Shown: piece after piece, positions 1,314-12,443 of the stretch
How positions within the stretch are numbered: position 1 is the stretch's first letter
How the letters are laid out: each line of letters opens with the position of its first letter
Origin: Corynebacterium camporealensis
GTDB taxonomy: Bacteria > Actinomycetota > Actinomycetes > Mycobacteriales > Mycobacteriaceae
Direction of reading: 5' to 3'
NCBI RefSeq assembly: GCF_000980815.1
Contig: NZ_CP011311.1
Span: 620,001-684,000 of the forward strand
Length of the DNA: 64,000 nt
Program-made: the position numbers and the translations under genes
The notes under the pieces: model-generated
The model's input: the letters and a program-made list of their open reading frames with translations, nothing else
The model's database searches: none
Told to the model about the DNA's origin: nothing

Positions 1314-1405
1314 TACGAAAAGGGTCCGGAATGAATCCGGACCCTTCTCGCGTTCTCTATCTCTCTCATGCGTACCGCATCTCAGCCGTACGAGATTCAT
1401 TATGC
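1314..1405 (-). repeat. Terminator-tail repeat, copy A
   Basis: This 92-base stretch is repeated without a mismatch at 1520-1611. Read on the minus strand it begins CATAATGAATCTCGTACGG, continues through GGTACGCATGAGAGA and ends in a strong hairpin followed by TTTTCG. Together with copy B it fills the 364-base gap between the DUF5129 gene and the YrhK-type gene. More divergent relatives are at 3288-3371 and 12167-12311. Confidence 0.85.
1320..1346 (-). terminator. Hairpin terminator of repeat copy A
   Basis: AAGGGTCCGGA pairs perfectly with TCCGGACCCTT across a short loop. On the minus strand the stem is followed by TTTTCG, which fits intrinsic termination of minus-strand transcription. Confidence 0.7.
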
Positions 1406-1519
1406 GCACCGGTGCTGGCACGGCAGTGGAATGAGGCTGGCAATTGCCTGTCGATTTAGATTCGTTTTGGTCACGCTGGGTCCGTGGCCCATAGCCAGGG
1501 GCAGCGCACCGTCTGGAGA

Positions 1520-1611
1520 TACGAAAAGGGTCCGGAATGAATCCGGACCCTTCTCGCGTTCTCTATCTCTCTCATGCGTACCGCATCTCAGCCGTACGAG
1601 ATTCATTATGC
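1520..1611 (-). repeat. Terminator-tail repeat, copy B
   Basis: This is identical to copy A over 92 bases, 206 bases away. Similarity continues at a lower level for roughly 55 bases beyond, up to the stop codon of the DUF5129 gene, so an approximately 200-base unit seems to have been duplicated in tandem. It lies just 3' of the DUF5129 gene in that gene's sense. Confidence 0.85.
1526..1552 (-). terminator. Hairpin terminator of repeat copy B
   Basis: The stem and T-run are the same as in copy A. Being the first hairpin after the DUF5129 stop codon at 1662, it is the likely terminator of that gene. Confidence 0.7.
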
Positions 1612-1661
1612 ACAGCCACGCTGAAACGACAGTGGCACGAACCTGGCAACTACCTGCCGGT

Positions 1662-3179
1662 TTAGAACCTCGAGCTACCGCCTGAGCCGGAGAAGCCAGA
1701 GCTAAAGCTGGAGTTGACCCCGCCAGAAGAACTGTTGGAGTTGAAGGATTGCGCCGTCGAATTCCAGACACTGAGCTGGTAGTAGGGGATAAACCCGTAG
1801 ACACCAGCACCGGCAAAGAAGCCGCGGTCGTAGATATCTGCTTCCTTTGGTGTCTCGTCAGCGTTGTTCTTCTGTTGCAGCAGGTTCTGCAGCGCATGCA
1901 TGGCGCGCGAACTGCGGTTGAGCAAAGTCAGGTAGTTCTCCATGAACTCTGGCTGGGTGGGATTGTGGCTCAGTTCGCGTGCATCCCGTTCTAGGATGCG
2001 CAGTTCCTCTTGCAGCGATTCGGCATGCTCACCTGCCTCGACGCTGGCGTCGTGTAGGTCTTCTTCGAGTTTGTAGAGCTCGTGCTTGCGGGTGGCGGCG
2101 TCGGCATGCTCCATGCCATAGAGCTTGTCGATGTTCTCCTCGGCCACCTCCATGCGCTCACAGGTCTGCGCAGTCTCGGCGAGCTTGTCTGCGTGCTTCT
2201 CAAATTCTTCATCGGGGGAGGTTGCACTGAGCTGGCTCATGGGAGAGACCTTGCGGTCGAGTTTGAGGAAGTCTTTGCGCAGTTTCTCCCACTGCCTGCG
2301 CAGATGCGCGTTAAGCAGGTCAGAACTTAAGGAATTCGCACGGATATCGATCGCATCCAGGCGTGCAGCCACATCGGCATAAGTCTGGGAGACGTAATCC
2401 CAATCCTCGCGGGCGGTGACCACGTTGCTTTGCTTCTTGCGGCGGGAGCCAGCACCGATACCGACGATGGTTGCAGCAACCACACCCGCACCGACACCGC
2501 CACCAGTAACACCAAAGTCGCGATCAGATTTAGCTTCCTCGTAGGTGCTCTCGCTGAGTTTTTCTGCACTCACTGCGTTATCGGCACCAGCAAAAAGACC
2601 GGCCGGGATGTTGTTATCCCGCACGCCGGGCTTGATGGCATCGAGGGATTCTTCCAAGTGATCTGATTCGTCTTTAAGCTGATAGGCCTCAGCGACATCT
2701 TCACCGGCAAAGATGAAGGCCTGCCGCGGATCGAGTCCGACACCAACGAAGAGTTGGCCATCAGTGAAGTAGTCATCGCCGATGAGATCGGGGTGGTGGT
2801 CGCGCAGGTAATTCTCCACAGTGTCATTGACGTTGTCGTCGTTTGTCTCAAACACCATGTAGTTGACCTGCTCGACTTCTTCGGCGACATCGATGCGTTC
2901 GATATCGCGGAGCATGCGGCGTTCATCGTCAGGCGTGAGCACATCATCCGGGTCCATAATCTCTACCGTCGGTTGCTGCGTCGCAGGCTTGACGATGTAA
3001 TCCTCCTGCTGCGGCGACTCAAATACAGAGGACAGGCCAAAGAAAGAACCGCCGGCGACGAGGAGTCCGCTTCCCAGTGCTGCAGCAGTGAGCTTTCCTG
3101 CGCTCATAACCTTCGGTCCGCGACTAGCCGCGAAGGGTTGAACCTCTTTGCGTTCACTGCGGTCGTAGTCGTCGTACAT
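1662..3179 (-). CDS. DUF5129-type envelope protein with TPM-like domain
   Basis: The product is 505 residues. A basic N-terminus leads into a hydrophobic span at about 27-50 (LTAAALGSGLLVAGGSFFGL). An extracytoplasmic region of about 150 residues follows with the segment FTDGQLFVGVGLDPRQAFIF, which resembles TPM domains. A second glycine/valine-rich span (GVGAGVVAATIVGIGAG) comes next, then a long Glu/Leu-rich, probably coiled-coil region and a Gly/Ser/Asn-rich tail ending SGSGGSSRF. The ATG at 3179 is preceded by AGAAAGG. This architecture is known from corynebacterial DUF5129 proteins; no function is established. The two spans suggest membrane anchoring with the coiled coil in the cytoplasm. 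Confidence 0.7.
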   Translation of the reverse strand: MYDDYDRSERKEVQPFAASRGPKVMSAGKLTAAALGSGLLVAGGSFFGLSSVFESPQQEDYIVKPATQQPTVEIMDPDDVLTPDDERRMLRDIERIDVAEEVEQVNYMVFETNDDNVNDTVENYLRDHHPDLIGDDYFTDGQLFVGVGLDPRQAFIFAGEDVAEAYQLKDESDHLEESLDAIKPGVRDNNIPAGLFAGADNAVSAEKLSESTYEEAKSDRDFGVTGGGVGAGVVAATIVGIGAGSRRKKQSNVVTAREDWDYVSQTYADVAARLDAIDIRANSLSSDLLNAHLRRQWEKLRKDFLKLDRKVSPMSQLSATSPDEEFEKHADKLAETAQTCERMEVAEENIDKLYGMEHADAATRKHELYKLEEDLHDASVEAGEHAESLQEELRILERDARELSHNPTQPEFMENYLTLLNRSSRAMHALQNLLQQKNNADETPKEADIYDRGFFAGAGVYGFIPYYQLSVWNSTAQSFNSNSSSGGVNSSFSSGFSGSGGSSRF

Positions 3180-3287
3180 CGATGGCCTTTCTGCCAGTGA
3201 CAATGGATGTGAAGTACTACATAGTCTAGCAAGAAGTGGGTTACCTAATCGCTCCCATAAGGTGTTCTGTGGCTGTAAAGATACACC

Positions 3288-3371
3288 GAGGGCCTGGACT
3301 GTGTGTCCAGGCCCTCGTGCTCTCTCTATCTCTCATGCGTACCAGGTCTTAACCGGTACCAGAGCATTGTG
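3288..3371 (-). repeat. Terminator-tail repeat, copy C
   Basis: A perfect 12-bp hairpin (GAGGGCCTGGAC / GTCCAGGCCCTC, 3288-3316) is followed on the plus strand by CTCTCTATCTCTCATGCGTA, the same tail as copies A and B, and then by a diverged segment ending in CATTGTG. Read on the minus strand the tail precedes the hairpin. It lies 3' of the thiolase gene. The hairpin sequence is unrelated to that of A and B while the tail is conserved. The rest of the 338-base gap 3180-3517 shows no gene. Confidence 0.75.
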
Positions 3372-3517
3372 GATCTGGAACCTGTTTTCGCCATTCTGAC
3401 ACGCTGATAATTGATTAAATATCCATCGAGAGACATGTCAAAGAGCCAGTTAACAGTGGCATACGCAACTAATAGTCTATCTGATTTCTGGAAAGGTTTA
3501 GGGCGGATACGGCCGGC

Positions 3518-4732
3518 TTAGTCTTTGGTCAGGATCGCTGCCAGGCTTTGTCCTCCGCCGATGCACATGGTGACGAGGCCGGTTGTGAGGTTGTTGCGTT
3601 GCATTTCGTGGGAGGCGGTGACGACCATGCGGGCGCCGGTGGCGCCGACGGGGTGGCCCAGGGAGATGCCGGAGCCTACTGGGTTTAAGCGTGGGTCGTT
3701 AGCGTCGATGCCCCATTCGTCGAGGCAGGCGAGTGCTTGGGCGGCGAAGGCTTCGTTGAGTTCGATGAGGTCGATATCGTCCCAGGTAAGGCCTAGGCGT
3801 TTAAAGAGTTTGTTGGTGGCTGGGACTGGTCCGATGCCCATGCGTTCTGGTTCGACACCGGCTACTGCCCAGCCACGCAAAGTGACTACGGGTGTCAGTC
3901 CTAGTTCTTGTGCTTTGGCGCGGGTGGTGACGATGACGGCGGCGGCACCATCGTTTTGGCCGGAGGCGTTACCGGCGGTAACGGTTGCTTCGTTGTCTTG
4001 TGTGCCCATGACTGGGCGTAGTTTGGCTAGTTTGTCGGTGGTGGTATCTGGGCGTGGGTGTTCGTCTTTGTCGACGATGATTGGGTCGCCTTTGCGTTGG
4101 GGGACGGCGACGGGGACGATTTCGGCGTCGAATAGTCCTTGTTCTTGGGCTTTGCCTGCGCGCTGTTGAGAGTTTGCGGCTAGTTCGTCTTGGGCTTTAC
4201 GGGCGATGGTCTTTTCGCGGCGGAGGTTTTCTGCGGTTTCGATCATGCCACCGGCAATCGGGTGGTGGCAGCCGCCGGCGGTTTCGCGTGCTTCTTGGAG
4301 GCGGTCGCGTAGTTGCAGGTTGCCGGCTTTAGCGCCCCAGCGGATGGAGGCATCTACGGTGTATTCGGTACGTGACATTGATTCCGCACCACCGGCGATA
4401 ATGAGGTCGGCAGCTCCGGCGGTGATGTGTGCGGCGGCGGTAGCGATTGCTTGTAGGCCGGAGCCGCAGCGGCGGTCGAGTTGCATGCCGGGTACGGAGT
4501 CGAGGCCGGTATCGAGTGCGACGATGCGGCCTAATGCTGGTGCGGCACCGTTAGGGGAGGCTTGGCCAAGAATCAGGTCGTCGATATCTTCTGCCTTTAA
4601 GCCGGTGCGTTCGACTATGGCGCTTACGACGGTGGAGGCTAGGTCTTGGACGGGGACGGTTTTAAAGACCCCGCCGAAGCGGCCAACTGGTGTGCGCAGT
4701 GGTGAGCACAGGACAATATCGTGGTCGTTCAT
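3518..4732 (-). CDS. Acetyl-CoA C-acetyltransferase (thiolase)
   Basis: The 404-residue product is of normal thiolase length. The nucleophilic cysteine is Cys89 in LDRRCGSGLQA, and the catalytic motifs NEAFA, GHPVGATG and CIGGG are all present. Thiolases interconvert two acyl-CoA with a 3-ketoacyl-CoA plus CoA in the cytosol; this one could serve acetoacetyl-CoA formation or beta-oxidation. The ATG at 4732 has GGAG seven bases upstream. No fatty-acid or polyhydroxybutyrate genes stand next to it, so the pathway stays open. The 3' flank holds repeat copy C. Confidence 0.92.
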   Translation of the reverse strand: MNDHDIVLCSPLRTPVGRFGGVFKTVPVQDLASTVVSAIVERTGLKAEDIDDLILGQASPNGAAPALGRIVALDTGLDSVPGMQLDRRCGSGLQAIATAAAHITAGAADLIIAGGAESMSRTEYTVDASIRWGAKAGNLQLRDRLQEARETAGGCHHPIAGGMIETAENLRREKTIARKAQDELAANSQQRAGKAQEQGLFDAEIVPVAVPQRKGDPIIVDKDEHPRPDTTTDKLAKLRPVMGTQDNEATVTAGNASGQNDGAAAVIVTTRAKAQELGLTPVVTLRGWAVAGVEPERMGIGPVPATNKLFKRLGLTWDDIDLIELNEAFAAQALACLDEWGIDANDPRLNPVGSGISLGHPVGATGARMVVTASHEMQRNNLTTGLVTMCIGGGQSLAAILTKD

Positions 4733-4876
4733 GAATTCTCCGTTTCTTTTTGCTTCTTTTGGCGGGGTCGTTGAGGTGACCACGAGTGTAGTGTGCGTCA
4801 CACGGAGAACAAGGCTTATGCCTAATTGGTATGAGTTGTTGCGGAGCGGGCCTAGAGTAGGTCCGGGTGCGTGCTG

Positions 4877-5683
4877 TTAGGAAGCGTCGGCGCGCACCAT
4901 TGAGGCAGGTGACGGGGTGCCGCGCACTGCGGAGACGGTGAAGTTAGCCATGTGTGGCAGGTAGCGATCGTCGGAAGCTTCAATTGGGGTGCCATCGAGT
5001 GTGAAGGCGTGACGACGCACGCGCAGCAGGGGAGTGCCAGGGGTGACACCGAGTAGTTCGGCATCTTCTTCGTTGGCGCCAACAGCATCAATGGTGCGGG
5101 TGGCATGCGAGATATCCACTCCACAGTTGAGGAGCTGCTGGTAGATAGAACCAGAATCCGGGTCGAAGACGAGTACGTGCTTGCCCACCTCAAGGGGATA
5201 GTTGAGGCGCTCGACCATGGCGGGTGTGCCGTCCATAAGGCGCAGGCGCAGCACGGACACGATGGGATCGTCGGTGTTGATTTCCAAGCGAGTGGCCATC
5301 TCCGCATTAGCGCGGCAGCGGGTTACCCACTGGGTTTCCTGGCCTGGCTCGATACCGGAGTTGTGGCACCACTGGGAAAAGGAAATGATGTCGTCGAAGT
5401 CCTGAGTCGGCACAGTATCGAGCACGCGCGAGCGACGGCCTTGTCCAGAGGAGATGAGCCCTTCGTTGCGGAGGGTGGCAACAGCCTGGCGAATGGTTCC
5501 GCGCGCACACCCGTACTGCCGGCACAGCTCTGCTTCCGAGGGGATAGATGCGCCGGGGGCGAGTTCTCCTTCTCGGATTTGTTTGCGGAGGTCTGCGGCG
5601 ATTTCCTGGTGTTGCTGCTGACGGGCCACTGTTGCAGACAAGCCTTTCGTAAATAGGTGATGCTTCAACGAGATTGTTCCCAT
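4877..5683 (-). CDS. GntR-family regulator (UTRA) of the phosphonate module
   Basis: The product is 268 residues. A GntR winged helix-turn-helix sits at about 25-90 (PSEAELCRQYGCARGTIRQA). A UTRA ligand-binding domain follows, with the typical segment LLGVTPGTPLLRVRRHAFTLDG near the C-terminus (quoted in parts: LLGVTPGTP, LLRVRR). It is divergent from the FAD oxidoreductase gene. UTRA regulators beside phosphonate genes usually sense a phosphonate or an intermediate and repress the operon; that role is inferred here from position and from two similar palindromic sites at 5738 and 6943. The ATG at 5683 has a weak ribosome site. Confidence 0.85.
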   Translation of the reverse strand: MGTISLKHHLFTKGLSATVARQQQHQEIAADLRKQIREGELAPGASIPSEAELCRQYGCARGTIRQAVATLRNEGLISSGQGRRSRVLDTVPTQDFDDIISFSQWCHNSGIEPGQETQWVTRCRANAEMATRLEINTDDPIVSVLRLRLMDGTPAMVERLNYPLEVGKHVLVFDPDSGSIYQQLLNCGVDISHATRTIDAVGANEEDAELLGVTPGTPLLRVRRHAFTLDGTPIEASDDRYLPHMANFTVSAVRGTPSPASMVRADAS

Positions 5684-5736
5684 CCTAAAGTATCTGTCCT
5701 GCCTATGTAGGTTAAGAGAAGATGAACCTTTGTTTA

Positions 5737-5762
5737 ACCTGTCTAGGCAAGTCTCGACAGGT
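5737..5762. promoter_or_regulatory. Candidate GntR operator between regulator and hpnW-like gene
   Basis: A perfect inverted repeat ACCTGTC / GACAGGT (arms 5737-5743 and 5756-5762) encloses the near-palindrome CCTGTCTAGGCAAG at 5738-5751. A second, weaker pair AGGTT / AACCT lies just before it. The position in the 105-base divergent gap fits an operator controlling both directions. The core CTAG-purine-CAAG recurs upstream of phnD. Confidence 0.5.
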
Positions 5763-5788
5763 GGGGTGCGGCGGGCAATAATAGCCTT

Positions 5789-6904
5789 ATGAAAACAGAT
5801 GTGATTGTTGTAGGTGCAGGCATTATCGGCCTGGCCAGTGCATTTTTGGCCCGTAAGCATAGACTGTCGGTGCGTGTCATTGATCGTTCGGAACGCCCGG
5901 TGGGCTCATCCATTCAGAACTTTGGACATGCGTGCTTCACTGGACAAGCTGATGAAGTTCAAGATGCTGTGTGGTCCTCGCGCGAAGGTTGGCTGAAGGC
6001 GGCTGAGGCGACGGGGCTGTGGGCATCGGAAAGCGGCACATATTTGCCTGCCCAGTCTGAGGTAGAACTGCAGGTCCTGGAAGAATTCGCGCAGCACCGT
6101 GGTTCGGAGCAGGTTCAATTGATTGATGCTTCGGCCATCGCCGAAGGCATCGGCAATCCGGACGCAAAGAGCCTGGGTGGCGCGTACTTGCCGCTGGATA
6201 TGCGCGTGAATCCGCGCGAGGCGGCACCGCGTATTGCGGCGTGGTTGGCAGAAAATGGGGTGAGCTTCGAGTGGCGTCACGAGGTCAAGGAAGTTGCTGA
6301 TGGCACCGTGAAGACCAACCGCGGGGAGTTTACCGCGGAGCGTGTCATCTGCTGCCCGAACTTCTTTATGACGCAGCTGTTCCCAGAGATCGCAGACAGG
6401 TATGAAATCCGGGTGTGCACGCTGGTCATGGCGCTGCTCGAGCGCCCGGAGCGCATTCCGCAGAACCTGGCAATGCTGACTGGCACCGCACTGGGGCGCT
6501 ATGACGGCTTTGCGGCGATGCCGAGCATCGACAAGTTCAAGCAAGACTTGGCGCAGCGCGAACCGGAACTGGTTGATTGCATTGCCAACCTCATGGCCAC
6601 TGGTATTCCGGAGGGACTGCTGGTGGGCGATTCGCACGAATATGACCTGTCGCCGGAACCGTTTATTGATGAAACGGTGGGGCAGTTGCTCATTGACAAG
6701 ACGACGGGATTGTTGGGTATTGATTCCCCGCGTGTGCTGCAGCGTTGGCAGGGCCGTTATGCGGATTCGCCGCTGGCCAATTTGATTGTGGAGCGCCCGG
6801 ATGAGCAGACCTGTGTGCTGGCGGCAACCTCGGGTATTGGTATGACGATGTCCTTCGGTTTGGCCAACGTGGCGTTGCAGGGAGATGAACTCCCGACGGC
6901 ATAA
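5789..6904 (+). CDS. FAD-dependent oxidoreductase, HpnW type (phosphonate catabolism)
   Basis: The 371-residue product starts with the FAD-binding dinucleotide fold VIVVGAGIIGLASAFLARKH at residues about 5-24 and has the DAO-family layout. It ends in TSGIGMTMSFGLANVAL, the C-terminal flavin-contact region. Closest by context and length is the TIGR03364 group (proposed name HpnW), found with phosphonatase-like hydrolases. A plausible role is oxidative deamination of an aminoethylphosphonate or its N-methyl form to phosphonoacetaldehyde, replacing the PhnW transaminase; the exact substrate is an inference. It is the first gene of a plus-strand cluster reaching 12158. Confidence 0.8.
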   Translation: MKTDVIVVGAGIIGLASAFLARKHRLSVRVIDRSERPVGSSIQNFGHACFTGQADEVQDAVWSSREGWLKAAEATGLWASESGTYLPAQSEVELQVLEEFAQHRGSEQVQLIDASAIAEGIGNPDAKSLGGAYLPLDMRVNPREAAPRIAAWLAENGVSFEWRHEVKEVADGTVKTNRGEFTAERVICCPNFFMTQLFPEIADRYEIRVCTLVMALLERPERIPQNLAMLTGTALGRYDGFAAMPSIDKFKQDLAQREPELVDCIANLMATGIPEGLLVGDSHEYDLSPEPFIDETVGQLLIDKTTGLLGIDSPRVLQRWQGRYADSPLANLIVERPDEQTCVLAATSGIGMTMSFGLANVALQGDELPTA

Positions 6905-6919
6905 ATGACCGTCAGGTTA

Positions 6920-6963
6920 CTTGTACATGAACTCTTTCTACACGACTAGACAAGCTGTACAAG
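6920..6963. promoter_or_regulatory. Candidate GntR operator upstream of phnD
   Basis: CTTGTAC (6920-6926) and GTACAAG (6957-6963) form a wide inverted repeat. Inside it, CGACTAGACAAG at 6943-6954 repeats the core of the 5738 site (CTAG-purine-CAAG). The location, 60-100 bases before the phnD start, suggests that transporter expression has its own regulated promoter. Confidence 0.45.
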
Positions 6964-7017
6964 TCGGGTGACAATAAATCCAGAAACAAGCCCACTACCT
7001 GCTCAAAGGACAATTCG

Positions 7018-7941
7018 TTGAAGTCTATCAAGTTGCTCACCGCCCTTCTGGCCACCGTTCCTTTTGCCGCTGCGTGCGGTTCGGCAGATTCTGCTGACGA
7101 CGCCCAAACTCTCACCTTCGCCGCCATTCCTTCCGAGTCTTCTCAGTCTCTGCAGTCTTCCTACGACAACGTGATTGCCATGCTGGAAAAAGAAACCGGC
7201 GTGAACATCGAATTCCAGGACGCCTCCGACTACGCCGCAGTGGTCGAGGGCCAGCGCGCTGGTCAGATTGATATCGCCAGCTTCGGTCCTTTCTCCTACA
7301 TCTTGGCTAAGGACTCTGGCGTTCCGATTGAGCCGGTTGCAGCTCAGGCCGATACCGATGAGGGCCTGCCGGCATACTCCTCGCTGGCCTACGTCACCGC
7401 TGATTCTGACATTTCCTCCCTGGAGGATCTTCAGGGCAAGAAGGTCTGCCTGGTCGACCCGTCGTCGACCTCCGGCTACCTGGTCCCGACCAAGGGCTTC
7501 ATCGATGCAGGTATGAATGTCGAAGCTGACATTGAACCCGTCATGACCGGCGGCCACGATGCCTCCTTGCTGGCACTGCAGGACGGTGCCTGCGATGCTG
7601 CCTTCGCTCACGATTCCATGCTGACCACCCTGAATGATTCCGGCCAGCTCAGCGAAGATGACGTCAAGCCCATCTGGGAATCCGACCCGATTACTGAGGA
7701 CCCGGTAGTGCTCAACACCGAGACCGTCGATGCAGAACTGCTGGAGCAGATCGGCACCACCTTCCGCGAGAAGATCAACAAGCCAACCCTGGTCGAAGAG
7801 GGCATCTGCGAATCTGAGGACGACTGCGTTCTGCCGGAGGAAACCGAGTGGGGCTACATGCCTGTCGAGGATTCCGACTTCAACGCCATCCGCGATATCT
7901 GCGAGGCCACCCAGGCTGAGGCCTGCGACTCGATTGCTTAA
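7018..7941 (+). CDS. phnD: Phosphonate ABC transporter substrate-binding lipoprotein PhnD
   Basis: The product is 307 residues with a short basic N-terminus, hydrophobic core and a lipobox-like site at Cys20 (PFAAACGSA), so a surface lipoprotein is expected. The PhnD-type periplasmic-binding fold is seen in QIDIASFGPFSYILAKDSGV and DLQGKKVCLVDPSSTSGYLV. It captures phosphonates or phosphite-like anions for the PhnC/PhnE transporter. The start is a TTG with AAAGGA placed correctly upstream. The next gene, phnC, starts 34 bases after the stop. The product is acidic in its C-terminal part. Confidence 0.92.
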   Translation: MKSIKLLTALLATVPFAAACGSADSADDAQTLTFAAIPSESSQSLQSSYDNVIAMLEKETGVNIEFQDASDYAAVVEGQRAGQIDIASFGPFSYILAKDSGVPIEPVAAQADTDEGLPAYSSLAYVTADSDISSLEDLQGKKVCLVDPSSTSGYLVPTKGFIDAGMNVEADIEPVMTGGHDASLLALQDGACDAAFAHDSMLTTLNDSGQLSEDDVKPIWESDPITEDPVVLNTETVDAELLEQIGTTFREKINKPTLVEEGICESEDDCVLPEETEWGYMPVEDSDFNAIRDICEATQAEACDSIA

Positions 7942-7975
7942 ACACTCCGCCTGCGAGACAAGAAAGACTTTTCCC

Positions 7976-8797
7976 ATGACCCCTGAACTGCAAAAAGAAG
8001 TCGACGCGCAATACGCCGTCCAGATCCAGAACGTCACTAAGGACTTCGGCGGCGGTGTGCGCGGCCTCGACAACGTCAAGATTGGTTTCCGCACCGGCGA
8101 AATCACAGTACTGCTCGGCCTGTCCGGTTCCGGTAAGTCCACCCTGCTGCGCCACATCAATGGCCTGCACACACCCACCAAGGGCAGCGTGCGCGTGCTG
8201 AGCCAGGAGGTTAACTCGCTGAACAAGCGCGAGCTGCGTAGCCTACGCAAGGACGTCGGGGTCATCTTCCAGTCTTTCAACCTCGTTGGCCCGATGTCGG
8301 TGCTCGAAAACGTCTGCACCGGCGCACTCGGCGAGCTCAAGGGCCCGCGCCTGTCGCTGATGATGTACCCGAAGGCCATTAAGCAGGAAGCCCTGCAGAC
8401 CCTCGAGCGCGTCGGCCTGGCTGCCCAGGCTCACCAGCGTGCCGACACCCTGTCCGGTGGACAGCAGCAGCGCGTCGCTATTGCTCGTGCACTCATGCAG
8501 CATCCCAAGGTGCTGCTTGCCGATGAACCCGTCGCCGCCCTGGACCCCGTCTCTTCGGCTTCGGTCATCGAACTGCTGGAACAGATTTGCCGCGAAGACG
8601 GCCTGACCGTGATTTCTTCGCTGCACCAGGTCCAGCTCGCCGTCGATTTCGCGGACCGCATCATTGGCCTGCAGTCCGGCAAGGTCGGCTTCGACCGTTC
8701 CACCGAGGGCATGACCGCAGAATCTGCGAACGAAATCTACCAGTCCGTGGCAGTGGCACCTGCCGCTCCGACGGCATCGGCAGCAGCGGAGGCCTAA
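7976..8797 (+). CDS. phnC: Phosphonate ABC transporter ATP-binding protein PhnC
   Basis: The 273-residue ATPase shows Walker A GLSGSGKST (about 48-56), the ABC signature LSGGQQQR (about 159) and Walker B VLLADEPVAALDP (about 180). It powers uptake through PhnE with substrate delivered by PhnD. The ATG at 7976 was chosen because upstream codons lie inside phnD in another frame and homologues begin near here. The stop codon is directly followed by the phnE start, indicating translational coupling. Confidence 0.95.
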   Translation: MTPELQKEVDAQYAVQIQNVTKDFGGGVRGLDNVKIGFRTGEITVLLGLSGSGKSTLLRHINGLHTPTKGSVRVLSQEVNSLNKRELRSLRKDVGVIFQSFNLVGPMSVLENVCTGALGELKGPRLSLMMYPKAIKQEALQTLERVGLAAQAHQRADTLSGGQQQRVAIARALMQHPKVLLADEPVAALDPVSSASVIELLEQICREDGLTVISSLHQVQLAVDFADRIIGLQSGKVGFDRSTEGMTAESANEIYQSVAVAPAAPTASAAAEA

Positions 8798-10453
8798 ATG
8801 TCTACAGCTCTAGCAACCACGCCTACTAGGCGTCCCGTCGATATCAACCGCTGGGCTGCGACCTTAGTCCTCATCCTGCTTGCCGTACTGGGTGCATGGT
8901 CGGTCCAATCCATTGGCATCAACATCGCCACCTTGGCTCAGTCCGCAGATAATGCGCAAGCATTCATCGCGCGCATGTTCCCACTGGATTTCCCACCGGT
9001 AGCAGAACTTGCCAGCATGATTTTTGAGTCCCTGGCCGTTGTCTTTTTGGCCACGGCACTCTCCGTTGTCCTTTCGCTGCCACTAGCCGTGTGGGCTGCG
9101 CAGCGCACCGCCCCAAACAAGGGCATGCGCTATACCTCCCGCAGCATCATCGTGCTCATGCGTGCCATCCCGGACCTGGTCCTGGCCATTATCTTCATGC
9201 GTATGTTCGGCCTGGGCGCCATTGGCGGCATCCTGGCACTGGGCCTGCACTCCATCGGCATGGTGGGCAAGTTATACTCCGATGCCATCGAAGAACTTGA
9301 CGATGGCCCACGCGAGTCCATCGAATCCACCGGCGGCACCCGCACCCAGCAGATCTGGAGTGCCATCCCGCAGGCGCTCATGCCACAAATCATCGCCACC
9401 GCGCTGCACCGCTTTGATATCAACCTGCGCACCTCGGTCCTGCTGGGCTACGTCGGTGTTGGCGGCATTGGCCTGGCGATTGCCGATGCCATGCGCATGA
9501 TGAACTACCAGCGCGGCATGGCACTTGCCCTCGTGGTGCTGGTGCTGTGTATCGCCGTGGAATTCCTCTCCGGTGCCCTGCGCGCAATTATTCTGCGCAA
9601 GTCCGGTGCCAGTGCACCGCGCACCTGGGCTGACAACATCTTTAACCCAAAGGAGAAGCAGCCTGTCGATGTCGGCGTGACCCCACCGTGGAACTGGTCC
9701 CGCATCCAGCGCTTCCTCACCATTGCGATTGTCTTTGCACTCCTGGTCGCCTCCACCATGCGCGTCGAGCTGAACCCACAGCAGATCTTCCAGGGTCTGC
9801 TCGAGCTGCCAGAGACCCTCGCCCTCTTCTTCCCGCCTTCTGCTGCGGGCATGGCCGGTGACCTCTTCCTGCTTTTGCTGGAAACCCTGCGCATCGCCCT
9901 GGCCGCTACCTTCCTCGGCGCAGTACTCGCGCTGCCGATCGGCATCCTGGCTGCCCGCAATGTCGTAGCGAATAAGGCGGTCTACGGATTCTTCCGTACC
10001 CTCATCGTGGTCATCCGCGGTATCCCGGAGCTCATCCTGGCGATTGTCTTCGTGGTCATCTCTGGCCTGGGCGCTGTCGCCGGTACCTTGGCTCTCGCTC
10101 TCGGTGCGGTCGGCCTGCTATCCAAGCTCATCGCCGACTCGATTGAAGAAACCGACGTGGACGTCCAAGAAGCCGTGCGTACCTCCGGTGCCACCGAGGC
10201 ACAGATTTTCTTCTCGGCCACCTTGCGTCAGGCCGCCCCGGCATTCGTGGCGCACACGCTCTACCTGCTGGATACCAACATCCGCTCGGCGACCTTGCTC
10301 GGTGTCGTGGGTGCTGGTGGCATTGGCTTCCAGCTGCTCAACGCCTCCCGCGTTAACCAGTTCGAGGTTGTCACCTACATCCTCATCCTCATGGTCGCTG
10401 TCGTCCTGCTTGTCGAGCTGCTGTCCATGTGGCTGCGCAAAGCCGTGCGCTAG
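8798..10453 (+). CDS. phnE: Double-length phosphonate ABC permease PhnE
   Basis: The 551-residue protein contains two consecutive PhnE permease domains. Each has about six membrane spans and the EAA-type coupling loop: GPRESIESTGGTRTQQIW in the first half and DVQEAVRTSGATEAQIFF in the second. Many organisms encode PhnE once (around 270 residues, acting as a dimer) or as two genes; here both halves are joined by a linker near residues 265-300. The ATG follows the phnC stop with no gap. Confidence 0.93.
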   Translation: MSTALATTPTRRPVDINRWAATLVLILLAVLGAWSVQSIGINIATLAQSADNAQAFIARMFPLDFPPVAELASMIFESLAVVFLATALSVVLSLPLAVWAAQRTAPNKGMRYTSRSIIVLMRAIPDLVLAIIFMRMFGLGAIGGILALGLHSIGMVGKLYSDAIEELDDGPRESIESTGGTRTQQIWSAIPQALMPQIIATALHRFDINLRTSVLLGYVGVGGIGLAIADAMRMMNYQRGMALALVVLVLCIAVEFLSGALRAIILRKSGASAPRTWADNIFNPKEKQPVDVGVTPPWNWSRIQRFLTIAIVFALLVASTMRVELNPQQIFQGLLELPETLALFFPPSAAGMAGDLFLLLLETLRIALAATFLGAVLALPIGILAARNVVANKAVYGFFRTLIVVIRGIPELILAIVFVVISGLGAVAGTLALALGAVGLLSKLIADSIEETDVDVQEAVRTSGATEAQIFFSATLRQAAPAFVAHTLYLLDTNIRSATLLGVVGAGGIGFQLLNASRVNQFEVVTYILILMVAVVLLVELLSMWLRKAVR

Positions 10454-10480
10454 ATTCAACGTTTACAAGGAGAAATCAAC

Positions 10481-11146
10481 ATGAAGAAACTCGCCATTTT
10501 CGACATGGCTGGTACCACCATCGATGACCGCGACGAGGTCTACCGCGTTCTACGTCAGGCCGCCGAGCGCGAAGGCGCCGAGTTTAGCGATGAGACCTTC
10601 CAGGAATACATGGGTACTGAAAAGTACTGGGCCATCGGAAAGCTGCTTGAGGTCGGCAATGGCAACCAGGGCAACCACGATAAGGCCTGGGAATGGTTCC
10701 GCGAGGAACTGCGCCGTACCTACACCGAGCACCCACCACAGCCACTACCTGGTATCGAGGACATGTTCGCTCAGCTGCGCGAACAGAACATCAAGATCGG
10801 TCTGACTACTGGCTTCGCCCGTGAAATCGTGGACCTCATCTTGGAAGGTATGGGCTGGAACACCGGCGTTATTGATGCTTCCGCTGCCGGCGACGAAGTC
10901 TCCTCTGGCCGTCCTGAACCATTGCTGATCCAGAAGGTCATGGACGACACCGGCATTACCGATACTGCTGACGTGATTAGCCTGGGCGATACCCAAGCCG
11001 ATGTCGAAAGCGCACAGCGCGCCGGGGTCACCAGCGTAGGAGTGCTGACTGGTCACCTCACCACAGAGGACTTCCAGAATCACGGCGCTGACCACGTCCT
11101 GGACTCTGCTGCAGATGTCACCGAACTGGTGAGCCGCGATGGATAA
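10481..11146 (+). CDS. Phosphonatase-like HAD hydrolase
   Basis: The product is 221 residues. The HAD nucleophile is Asp8 in IFDMAGTTIDD, and motif IV is present as LGDTQADVESA. Lys48 in YMGTEKYWAI sits 40 residues after the nucleophile, matching the spacing of the Schiff-base lysine of phosphonoacetaldehyde hydrolase PhnX, so C-P bond hydrolysis of an aldehyde is plausible. It corresponds to the TIGR03351 group found with HpnW/HpnZ genes. AAGGAGA precedes the ATG at 10481, and the end overlaps the next start by eight bases. The exact substrate is inferred. Confidence 0.85.
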   Translation: MKKLAIFDMAGTTIDDRDEVYRVLRQAAEREGAEFSDETFQEYMGTEKYWAIGKLLEVGNGNQGNHDKAWEWFREELRRTYTEHPPQPLPGIEDMFAQLREQNIKIGLTTGFAREIVDLILEGMGWNTGVIDASAAGDEVSSGRPEPLLIQKVMDDTGITDTADVISLGDTQADVESAQRAGVTSVGVLTGHLTTEDFQNHGADHVLDSAADVTELVSRDG

Positions 11147-12158
11147 AGCCCGCGTAGTCATCTGGGAAGGCGGCGATACCTTCGACCTCGAGAGTATCGA
11201 GCTTCCCGAACTCTCGGAAGGCGAAACTCTAGTCCGTTTGCGCACCGCGACTATCTGCGGTTCCGACCGGCATACGGTATCCGGCCGTCGCGCTCAGCCC
11301 TGTCCGTCCATCCTGGGCCACGAAGGCGTCGGCGAGGTCATCGCTACTCAGAACCCAGATATCGAAGTAGGGCAGCGGGTCACCTTCTCAGTCACCGCGC
11401 CATGCATGAACTGCGACCGCTGTCGCGCCGGGCGCACCGCCAAGTGCCGCAGCGTACTGAAGACCGGTCACGAATCCTTGCATTCTGAGTGGCCACTATC
11501 CGGTACCTACTCCACGCACATCCTGTTGCGGAAGAACCAGCCGGTCGTTGTGGTTCCCGATGCCATCGACAATCTGCCTGCATCCATTGCTTCCTGTGCA
11601 GGCGGCACCGTCATGGCGGCGGTTGAGGCCGCCGGCGACCTACGCGACCAACGCGTACTCGTGATGGGCATCGGCATGCTCGGGCTTATCGCCGTCGATG
11701 TGGCCGTGCGCGCCGGGGCAAAGGTCACCGCCGTCGACCCGAATGCAAAGCGTCGCCAATGGGCTGAGGAACTCGGTGCCACCGTCATTGATTCGGCGCA
11801 GTTCCACCCGGGACCGAACTCCTTCGACGTCTCGCTGGAGCTGTCCGGCGTGGGCCCAGGTGTAGATGCCTGCATCAAGTGCCTCGATATCGGTGGTACT
11901 GCAGTACTGGTCGGCTCAGTTGCGGATTCACCCATCCATCAGCTGGACCCCGAGTGGGTCGTCCGCGGCTGGCGCACCATCACCGGTGTGCACAACTACG
12001 AACCACGCCATTTAGACCAGGCGTTGGACATTCTCCAGAACTCGCGAATCACCTGGCAGGATGTCTGCGCCGACCCCATTCAACTCAATAGAGTCCCGCG
12101 CGCTTTCGACACCGCGCCTTCGGACTTTCTGCGTACTCCGGTGGAGCTTCCCCAGTAG
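11139..12158 (+). CDS. Zinc alcohol dehydrogenase, HpnZ type
   Basis: The 339-residue medium-chain dehydrogenase has catalytic zinc ligands Cys40 (ICGSDRH) and His61-Glu62 (GHEGVGE), and the structural zinc cysteines 89, 92, 95 and 103. A Rossmann fold follows (VLVMGIGMLGLIAVDVA). It fits the TIGR03366 group (HpnZ) associated with phosphonate catabolism. It may reduce or oxidise the aldehyde released by the HAD hydrolase, or handle a hydroxyphosphonate; that is inference. It is the last gene of the cluster. Confidence 0.82.
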   Translation: MDKARVVIWEGGDTFDLESIELPELSEGETLVRLRTATICGSDRHTVSGRRAQPCPSILGHEGVGEVIATQNPDIEVGQRVTFSVTAPCMNCDRCRAGRTAKCRSVLKTGHESLHSEWPLSGTYSTHILLRKNQPVVVVPDAIDNLPASIASCAGGTVMAAVEAAGDLRDQRVLVMGIGMLGLIAVDVAVRAGAKVTAVDPNAKRRQWAEELGATVIDSAQFHPGPNSFDVSLELSGVGPGVDACIKCLDIGGTAVLVGSVADSPIHQLDPEWVVRGWRTITGVHNYEPRHLDQALDILQNSRITWQDVCADPIQLNRVPRAFDTAPSDFLRTPVELPQ

Positions 12159-12166
12159 TACGCTGC

Positions 12167-12311
12167 AAAAACGACGTCGGCCCCGGGGCACTAACCCGGG
12201 GCCGACGACGTCTCTCTCTACAAGGTGTCACGCTCTGGCCTTTCGGCCACCCTGCGTAACAAGGGTCTCTCGTATGCGTACCGCTATCCGATCCGCACGA
12301 GATTCATTATG
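12167..12311 (-). repeat. Terminator-tail repeat, copy D, with terminator hairpin
   Basis: A perfect 13-bp stem (CGTCGGCCCCGGG at 12175-12187, partner 12195-12207), extended by three pairs past an A-A mismatch, is followed on the minus strand by TTTTT (12171-12167). On the plus strand no T-run follows. Behind it lie TCTCTCTA, an inserted small stem-loop (TGGCC/GGCCA), then CTCTCGTATGCGTACCG and ACGAGATTCATTATG, the conserved tail of copies A-C. Both neighbouring genes are on the plus strand, so this copy is antisense to its surroundings. The rest of the 285-base gap shows no gene. Confidence 0.75.
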
Positions 12312-12443
12312 GGCAATACGTCTGCCATAGCAATGCCTGTGAACTGGATGTTTGCTGCCACTTCCTAAAAGGTGTCTGTGAGCTGCACAGGCGAGTATGA
12401 CAAAGCAGGTCTAGGCTAGTGCGCAGAAAGGAGAAAACCATCA

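Follow-up and report, generated by a model that had tools for sequence, protein, structure and literature searches.

What are the four related segments on the minus strand of a 64-kb stretch of the Corynebacterium camporealensis genome (contig NZ_CP011311.1, 620,001–684,000; hereafter the window, numbered from its first letter), and why is one part of each segment kept when the remainder changes completely? An earlier note on this DNA had described copies A (1314–1405), B (1520–1611), C (3288–3371) and D (12167–12311) as a shared tail joined to a GC hairpin that differs between copies, and had proposed a family of short transcripts. Comparison with related genomes points to an answer: A–D are likely to be four genes of a multicopy family of stand-alone small RNAs (sRNAs) in part of Corynebacterium, probably under the control of a PhoP-type regulator.

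Four copies with a common layout

All four copies were located at these positions. A, B and C each contain the 15-mer GGTACGCATGAGAGA without mismatch, and D contains it with two (1.56 occurrences expected by chance at up to three mismatches); CATAATGAATCTCGT is exact only in A, B and D (0.87 expected). Copy C has the diverged CACAATGCTCTGG in place of the latter, so that the tail thought to be common to all copies holds for A, B and D and is only partly present in C. When the 2.45-Mb genome was searched by blastn with the 61-nt tail, the four copies were returned together with one 14-nt match at E 1.58. The GC hairpins are unlike between A/B, C and D, and a T-run follows the hairpin in A, B and D, as had been described; it is not clear in C.

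The tail of the earlier note is a promoter, a hairpin (P1) and a linker, and the changing hairpin is the terminator. Because a terminator needs no conserved sequence, this explains why the tail is kept as the hairpin changes; the inverted words CGTAC and GTACG that had been pointed out in the tail form hairpin P1. The RNAfold predictions agree with this layout, in which P1 is joined by the GA-rich linker to a strong GC hairpin. Folding z-scores of the four RNAs range from −5.94 to −6.68, and much of this will come from the terminator hairpins.

Three of the copies are short forms. In copy A (1314–1404, minus strand, as are all features given here for the window), the −10 box CATAAT lies at 1404–1399, and a putative start near 1392 is followed by P1 (1392–1371), the GA linker (∼1370–1352) and the terminator hairpin with its T-run (1351–1315). 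The corresponding parts of copy B (1520–1610) are the −10 box at 1610–1605, P1 at 1598–1577, the linker at ∼1576–1558 and the terminator at 1557–1521. Copy C (3283–3371) is the most diverged, with a −10 box CACAAT at 3371–3366, P1 at 3361–3336, a linker at ∼3335–3321 and a hairpin at 3320–3283 that has no clear T-run. Copy D (12167–12311) is a long form, with a −10 box at 12311–12306, P1 at ∼12298–12274 according to the family alignment (the minimum-free-energy fold extends P1 differently), a GA linker at ∼12273–12267, a pseudoknot, a second GA motif at ∼12220–12210 and a terminator with five Ts at 12215–12167. Transcription would begin ∼7 nt past the CATAAT or CATACT −10 box and would end at the intrinsic terminator, giving RNAs of ∼75–80 nt from A, B and C and of 130 nt from D.

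Copies A and B are identical across 93 nt (1313–1405 and 1519–1611). Their flanks are unlike, with 47 of 78 nt identical upstream and 17 of 80 downstream, indicating that the element and not a larger segment has been kept constant. Identity with diverged flanks is the pattern expected of gene conversion or of very strong constraint. A mobile or repeat element spread by transposition, similar to a miniature inverted-repeat transposable element or a repetitive extragenic palindrome, would also be multicopy, could leave identical copies with unlike downstream flanks and would vary in position between genomes, as these copies do. We regard this explanation as very improbable because conservation of the promoter and of the RNA fold extends past every repeat boundary that was observed, and because there are 1–6 model matches per genome and none on a plasmid.

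A probable sRNA family in part of Corynebacterium

The genus-wide search that the earlier note had suggested yields homologues in 36 of 242 Corynebacterium genomes. A covariance model (R1) built from five relatives, with no window sequence, matched 120 places in these genomes at E ≤ 0.01. Four copies were found in 17 genomes, three in 11, two in six, and six and one in a single genome each; these counts are lower bounds because of the stricter filters used at genus scale, where the C. camporealensis genome shows just two of its four copies. A second model (R2), built from an alignment of 18 long-form relatives (A9) and likewise containing no window sequence, matched the same 36 genomes. Within the window, R1 recovers A and B and places C at E 0.27, and R2 finds D at E 7.9e-7 (3.0e-5 genome-wide), A and B near 1e-3 and C at 0.054. 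In a wider set of 401 genomes from 31 genera of the same bacterial family, the eight that match are all Corynebacterium. A blastn search with the 61-nt piece gave matches in nine of 201 genus genomes, including that of C. camporealensis itself.

Applied to 77 loci, R1 gave 117 matches. Dropping the match in L036, which duplicates a place already matched in L121, and adding C and D gave a set of 118 extracted copies, of which 57 are non-redundant at 0.9 similarity. A seventh copy in genome G138 was recognized by eye from a pattern match. The models were built only from sets that align cleanly, since MAFFT misplaced stems in several alignments, and mixed types were counted by script. The core of the relatives reads (A/G)UGCG-UUUGAGAGAG-CGCAU followed by GAGAGAGAUAGAGA. 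A scan of named genomes with a 19-base motif gave 23 stretches, 11 of them in Corynebacterium: three in C. striatum, two in C. minutissimum and the others in C. flavescens, C. phoceense, Candidatus C. faecipullorum and three further species. We take the other 12, in unrelated genomes, for chance matches. One viral contig (L090, 4557–4575) bears the 19-base core motif.

Genomes of the family thus hold several similar copies, each with a promoter and a terminator, as expected of multicopy sRNAs; a run of four Ts lies within 160 nt in 43 of 54 copies. The orientation of the nearest downstream open reading frame (ORF), counted by hand from a crude ORF caller for the 57 non-redundant copies, is convergent in 38 and same-strand in 18, with none found in one. 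A reading as small ORFs was rejected, as the spacing from P1 to CCCC falls in all three frames (23, 8 and 5) and in-frame stops are scattered. With 38 of 57 copies facing a convergent ORF and no reading frame kept, we take the RNAs to be stand-alone, trans-acting and noncoding. The same counts bear on the idea that each copy is a cis-acting leader or attenuator of the next gene with its terminator as a regulated switch. The 18 copies followed by a same-strand ORF, which include A, B, C and a copy before a ugpA-like gene in locus L047, are those that would fit it, with gaps of 113–240 nt in these four by the crude ORF call. This reading is improbable given that the 38 copies facing a convergent ORF include D and that the neighbors differ between copies.

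A predicted pseudoknot with covarying helices in the long forms

Beyond what the earlier note had described, the family comprises short and long forms, a pseudoknot that is present in D, a repeated GA motif as its core and upstream boxes 11 nt apart. In the short forms (A, B and C), the GA linker runs directly into the terminator. The long forms insert an H-type pseudoknot consisting, in order, of CCCCU, the 5′ arm of stem S1, AGGGG, a small hairpin (P3) and the 3′ arm of S1, after which come a second GA motif and the terminator. The pseudoknot predicted for D (12226–12266) has S1 formed by UGUUACGC (12261–12254) and GCGUGACA (12233–12226), crossed by stem S2 between ACCCU (12266–12262) and AGGGU (12253–12249), with P3 as GGCC-GAAA-GGCC at 12248–12237. 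Its arms differ on both sides from those of relatives, in which S1 is formed by GUUUCCA/UGGAAAC, GCCACGC/GCGUGGC, GCUUUG/CAAAGC, UCUGGC/GCCAGA, GUUUUGC/GCAAAAC and other pairs.

Compensatory changes in the conserved fold, which the earlier note had proposed looking for, are present. In the 18 long forms of A9, 97.4% of 378 cells pair, compared with at most 48% when columns are slid by 1–3; in six of the 18 rows, misregister makes an S2 column fail. A change on both sides is seen in 27 cells as against 7.8 in shuffles, and compensatory pairs occur at four of seven positions in S1 and two of four in P3. All pairs form in a collection of 22 distinct stem sets, which between them use 18 different 5-nt S1 arms, and arms swapped between copies pair at 60%, a comparison that is partly circular because stems were chosen by complementarity. 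The same bias affects a pseudoknot finder, which picks stems by complementarity and passes 39 of 57 copies compared with 45 of 1140 shuffles; three of the 39 are spurious short-form matches, and two copies in L050 fail on account of a bulged S1. A check that used anchors only (15 rows, eight distinct) gave 93% paired compared with 76% for swapped arms, and is weak alone since the swap maximum is also 93%. As judged from these alignments, the helices of the long-form pseudoknot covary.

A GA-rich single-stranded core

What remains constant as the stems change is the GA-rich sequence. Counted with loose patterns in 54 copies, with three partial or duplicate matches left out, GAGAG occurs in the P1 loop in 49, a GA run in the linker in 52 and a GA motif further 3′ in 36. 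We propose that the conserved working part is GA-rich single-stranded sequence, which lies in the linker, in the P1 loop of most relatives and in the second linker of the long forms. The exact 12-mer GAGAGATAGAGA is found at 11 places in genomes G065 and G138, ten of them in copies called by the models and one in the copy recognized by eye. The C. camporealensis genome has it at four places; three are A, B and C, and the fourth precedes a terminator at a gene end.

This fourth site (L178/L275, ∼2556–2567; G000:C1:2438555–2438566, minus strand) closes a gene for an AlbA_2-domain protein with GAGAGATAGAGA and a strong terminator, and has neither P1 nor promoter. We read it as the 3′ module of the sRNA used as a 3′ untranslated region.

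A hairpin of this type, with GAGAGATAGAGA and without P1, at the end of another gene is what would be expected if the copies were bidirectional terminators, in which a pyrimidine tract follows a convergent terminator hairpin and the GA tract is simply its opposite strand, and most copies do lie at convergent gene ends. We give this explanation hardly any weight, as the −10 box with its 11-nt boxes, the P1 of relatives with a GA loop and the covarying pseudoknot are all left unexplained by it.

Promoter boxes in phase with the −10 box

The upstream sequences align without gaps up to the −10 box across species, which supports the earlier reading of the copies as independent short minus-strand RNAs with CATAAT as a −10 box and their own terminators. 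The promoter alignment (A10) contains 31 copies, with copy C left out. Of all 57 copies, 42 have CAG at −46, 40 at −35 and 33 at −13, and 37 have it at the first two positions together. In a set of 40 copies that we selected, setting aside 17 partial or diverged ones, the corresponding numbers at −46, −35 and −13 are 39, 36 and 30. An extra CAG at −56 in 22 of the 40 is offset by 10 nt, not 11, and CAT(G/T)G occupies −24. The ladder stops 10 nt upstream of the −10 box. These tandem half-sites are in helical phase with the −10 box, as expected of multicopy sRNAs controlled by a response regulator.

In the window, the boxes of copy A (1405–1457) are CAG half-sites 11 nt apart and in phase with the −10 box, those of copy B (1611–1663) are tandem CAG half-sites, and those of copy D (12312–12370) are CAG and CAT half-sites in 11-nt phase. 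A promoter-sequence model, whose training set included A, B and D, matches them at 1457–1399, 1663–1605 and 12370–12306, respectively. In 12 genomes it gave 45 matches, 33 at sRNAs and 12 elsewhere. Eight of these 12 were inspected; four are one orthologous locus beside glnE and the other four share no locus.

The CAG ladder beside glnE lies at ∼3357–3406 in L264 (G006:C1:1743356–1743405), ∼2911–2949 in L265, ∼2566–2616 in L269 and ∼2617–2657 in L266; glnE was identified by Pfam in L264 and by eye in the other three. The site is upstream of an ORF of 65–72 aa with a hydrophobic N-terminus (translated in L264, L265 and L269). This locus is likely to be a further member of the same regulon.

A PhoP-type candidate regulator

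Direct repeats with an 11-nt period are typical of OmpR-type regulators. Three CAGs in phase were found at nine sites in ten genomes, compared with four for a control pattern, and two of the nine precede one and the same response-regulator gene by a short distance. The best match of its protein in the PDB is M. tuberculosis PhoP (E 2.8e-96), the next other regulator being PrrA (1.2e-54). CAG-N8-CAG is present in the 250 bp upstream of this gene in all 14 genomes compared, and the triple in 12 of them; C. camporealensis has the double only. The double was found in none of 12 paralogue regions, in none of ten pstS regions and in 6.8% of random 250-bp windows (0.3% for the triple), and other CAG spacings upstream of the PhoP-type gene occur in zero to five of the 14. 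Because the sites are also present in two genomes without sRNA matches (G111 and G179), they belong to the regulator.

The published M. tuberculosis PhoP site is TCACAGC-N4-TCACAGC (PMC4832192), and the PhoR site is given as CCTGTGAA, the reverse complement of TTCACAGG, and the MtrA site as RTAACAAT in the available part of PMC3353115. MtrA, tried as a candidate, was rejected because this site does not fit (PMC3353115). A comparison with the PhoP/PhoR regulon holds for CAG-core half-sites that repeat every 11 nt, like those upstream of the regulator gene itself, and fails for the full 7–8-bp half-site (TCACAGC or TTCACAGG); in the sRNA boxes, the letters that precede CAG show no conservation. 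On this sequence evidence, the regulator is probably a member of the OmpR family, closest to M. tuberculosis PhoP and orthologous to C. glutamicum PhoR, and the sRNA family is probably controlled by it. The regulator would bind tandem CAG half-sites every 11 bp and activate transcription, which would place the RNAs under a two-component stress sensor. With a single candidate in hand, post-transcriptional control by a PhoP-type system outside M. tuberculosis can be tested directly.

Neighboring genes provide some indication of the signal. Copy D lies behind a phosphonate cluster in which PhnE, a phosphonate-type binding protein, and TIGR03364 and TIGR03366 score above cut-off and a PhnX-like protein just below. 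Some copies in relatives adjoin ugp-type genes, in L047 by NCBIfam, where UgpC passes the cut-off and UgpA and UgpB fall short of it, and in L050 and L051 by likeness, and other neighbors vary (ThrE, MFS, OpuAC, M20 peptidase, thiolase and cation efflux). The phosphonate and ugp neighbors, together with the role of PhoR in phosphate starvation of C. glutamicum, favor phosphate limitation. Because the neighbors vary and pstS lacks the boxes, we would put the chance that this is the signal at about even.

Observations that weigh against this interpretation

Several results count against the interpretation given above. Copy C has a weak −10 box and no clear T-run and is weakly recovered by the models. 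All four window copies lack the P1-loop UUUGAGAGAG of relatives; their P1 loops have drifted, and the linker motif is the part kept. Two of the five A9 covariation measures are not above shuffles: the number of pairs with a change on both sides is equally high in 58 of 500 shuffles, and that of further pair types in 381 of 500. When regulator-gene regions are ranked against 367 background windows by a weight matrix of the sRNA boxes, only three of 14 (G181, G170 and G179) score in the top 5%, and the C. camporealensis region ranks at 10%. These poor scores indicate that the two sets of sites have only CAG and the spacing in common, not the whole half-site. The pstS upstream regions of ten genomes (400 bp before the matched domain) contain no CAG tandem. 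C. glutamicum PhoR controls pstSCAB, and the phosphate link may therefore fail; the link to the regulator rests on the regulator's own gene. No conserved target emerged, in that exact 12-nt complements in ten genomes gave nearly only sRNA loci, mismatched targets not having been searched genome-wide.

Because the tandem is absent from all ten regions, boxes at pstS cannot serve to prove the regulator. Eight pstS promoters viewed by eye (L131, L133 and L135–L140) have repeats of the GTTCA or GTTTA type in place of CAG boxes. These resemble the Streptomyces PhoP site GTTCACC-N4-GTTCACC given in the accessible text of PMC4832192.

Possible action of the GA-rich core

In the proposed mechanism, exchangeable stems, joined in the long form by the pseudoknot, would present the GA-rich unpaired sequence, and the GA repeats would pair in trans with CU-rich stretches of target mRNAs. 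Pairing with CU-rich mRNA sites is the most likely action that we can propose, at roughly even odds in our estimation.

Decoy RNAs such as CsrB and RsmZ have loops with recurring purine motifs on stems that vary, and the GAGAGA motifs might similarly titrate an RNA-binding protein, as those RNAs do through GGA, with the stems and pseudoknot as a scaffold. In most relatives the unpaired motif is present two or three times in each RNA, and it returns in several copies as the stems change; the lack of a conserved complementary target site would fit as well. However, the target search covered only exact 12-nt complements in ten genomes, the motif is GAGAGA rather than GGA, and we know of no GAGA-binding protein in corynebacteria, so that titration is possible but doubtful. 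In a more specific version, which we hold to be unlikely, PhoP-type signaling would flood the cell with GAGAGA RNAs that capture a GAGA-specific protein on a pseudoknot scaffold. To our knowledge, the host group has neither Hfq nor CsrA, and we know of no earlier Csr-like titration circuit in Actinobacteria; if true, this would be the first. The GA repeats offer a starting point in the search for targets or for a new RNA-binding protein.

Relation to known regulatory RNAs

In line with the earlier note, which knew of no named family with this sequence, Rfam 15 gave no match in the window at gathering score, and in five loci with relatives at E ≤ 1 it gave four tRNAs and three sub-threshold matches, none at an sRNA copy.

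A close parallel in logic is provided by the csRNAs of streptococci, controlled by CiaRH. As far as the available part of that report goes (PMC3091779), they likewise comprise several similar sRNAs per genome with their own terminators, have an unpaired conserved stretch between stem-loops and are under response-regulator control through a direct repeat of 11-nt period, demonstrated for CiaR and presumed here; the 10-nt gap from the last half-site to the −10 box is also the same. They differ in that their boxes are TTTAAG-N5-TTTAAG rather than CAG units and that their unpaired parts are anti-Shine–Dalgarno and anti-AUG sequences rather than, by inspection, GA runs (PMC3091779). The CAU of the P1 3′ arm is predicted to be paired in relatives, and the long-form pseudoknot is a feature unlike those of csRNAs.

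The LhrC1–5 RNAs of Listeria (LisRK) are also multicopy, dependent on a two-component system, as we suppose here, and equipped with redundant motifs, but according to the accessible text (PMC4132741) their motif is the CU-rich UCCC, and no such repeated motif is seen here. Between start and linker, UCCC occurs in one of 54 copies, twice in none and not at all in A–D. For Mcr7 of M. tuberculosis, we know of neither GA repeats nor multiple copies. Mcr7 is a noncoding RNA under PhoP in a related actinobacterium, the arrangement suggested here, and is predicted in the part of the report available (PMC4038636) to pair with tatC through a large loop. The 6C RNA (RF01066), found in C. glutamicum, is an actinobacterial sRNA with a repeated unpaired motif as here (PMC4046766, seen in part). 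Its loops are C-rich as opposed to GA-rich by inspection, and RF01066 has no match in the window or the five loci.

By analogy, then, the family resembles csRNAs and LhrC in its logic but is unlike them in sequence. In the accessible portions of published work, including papers on sRNAs of C. glutamicum and other corynebacteria, no description of it was found. As far as could be looked, the kind, a regulator-controlled multicopy sRNA, is known, and the family, its GA core, its pseudoknot and the PhoP-type link are new. Corynebacterium thereby gains an sRNA family that can be computed and is supported by covariation.

Neighboring loci

The cluster that precedes copy D spans 4877–12158 of the window and appears to serve phosphonate use, with a GntR-type regulator, a binding protein, PhnE transport genes and a PhnX-like hydrolase. 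In L047, and by spacing also in L066 and similar loci, copies at steps of ∼1.7 kb alternate with different transporter genes, which in L047 are ThrE-like and MFS by Pfam.

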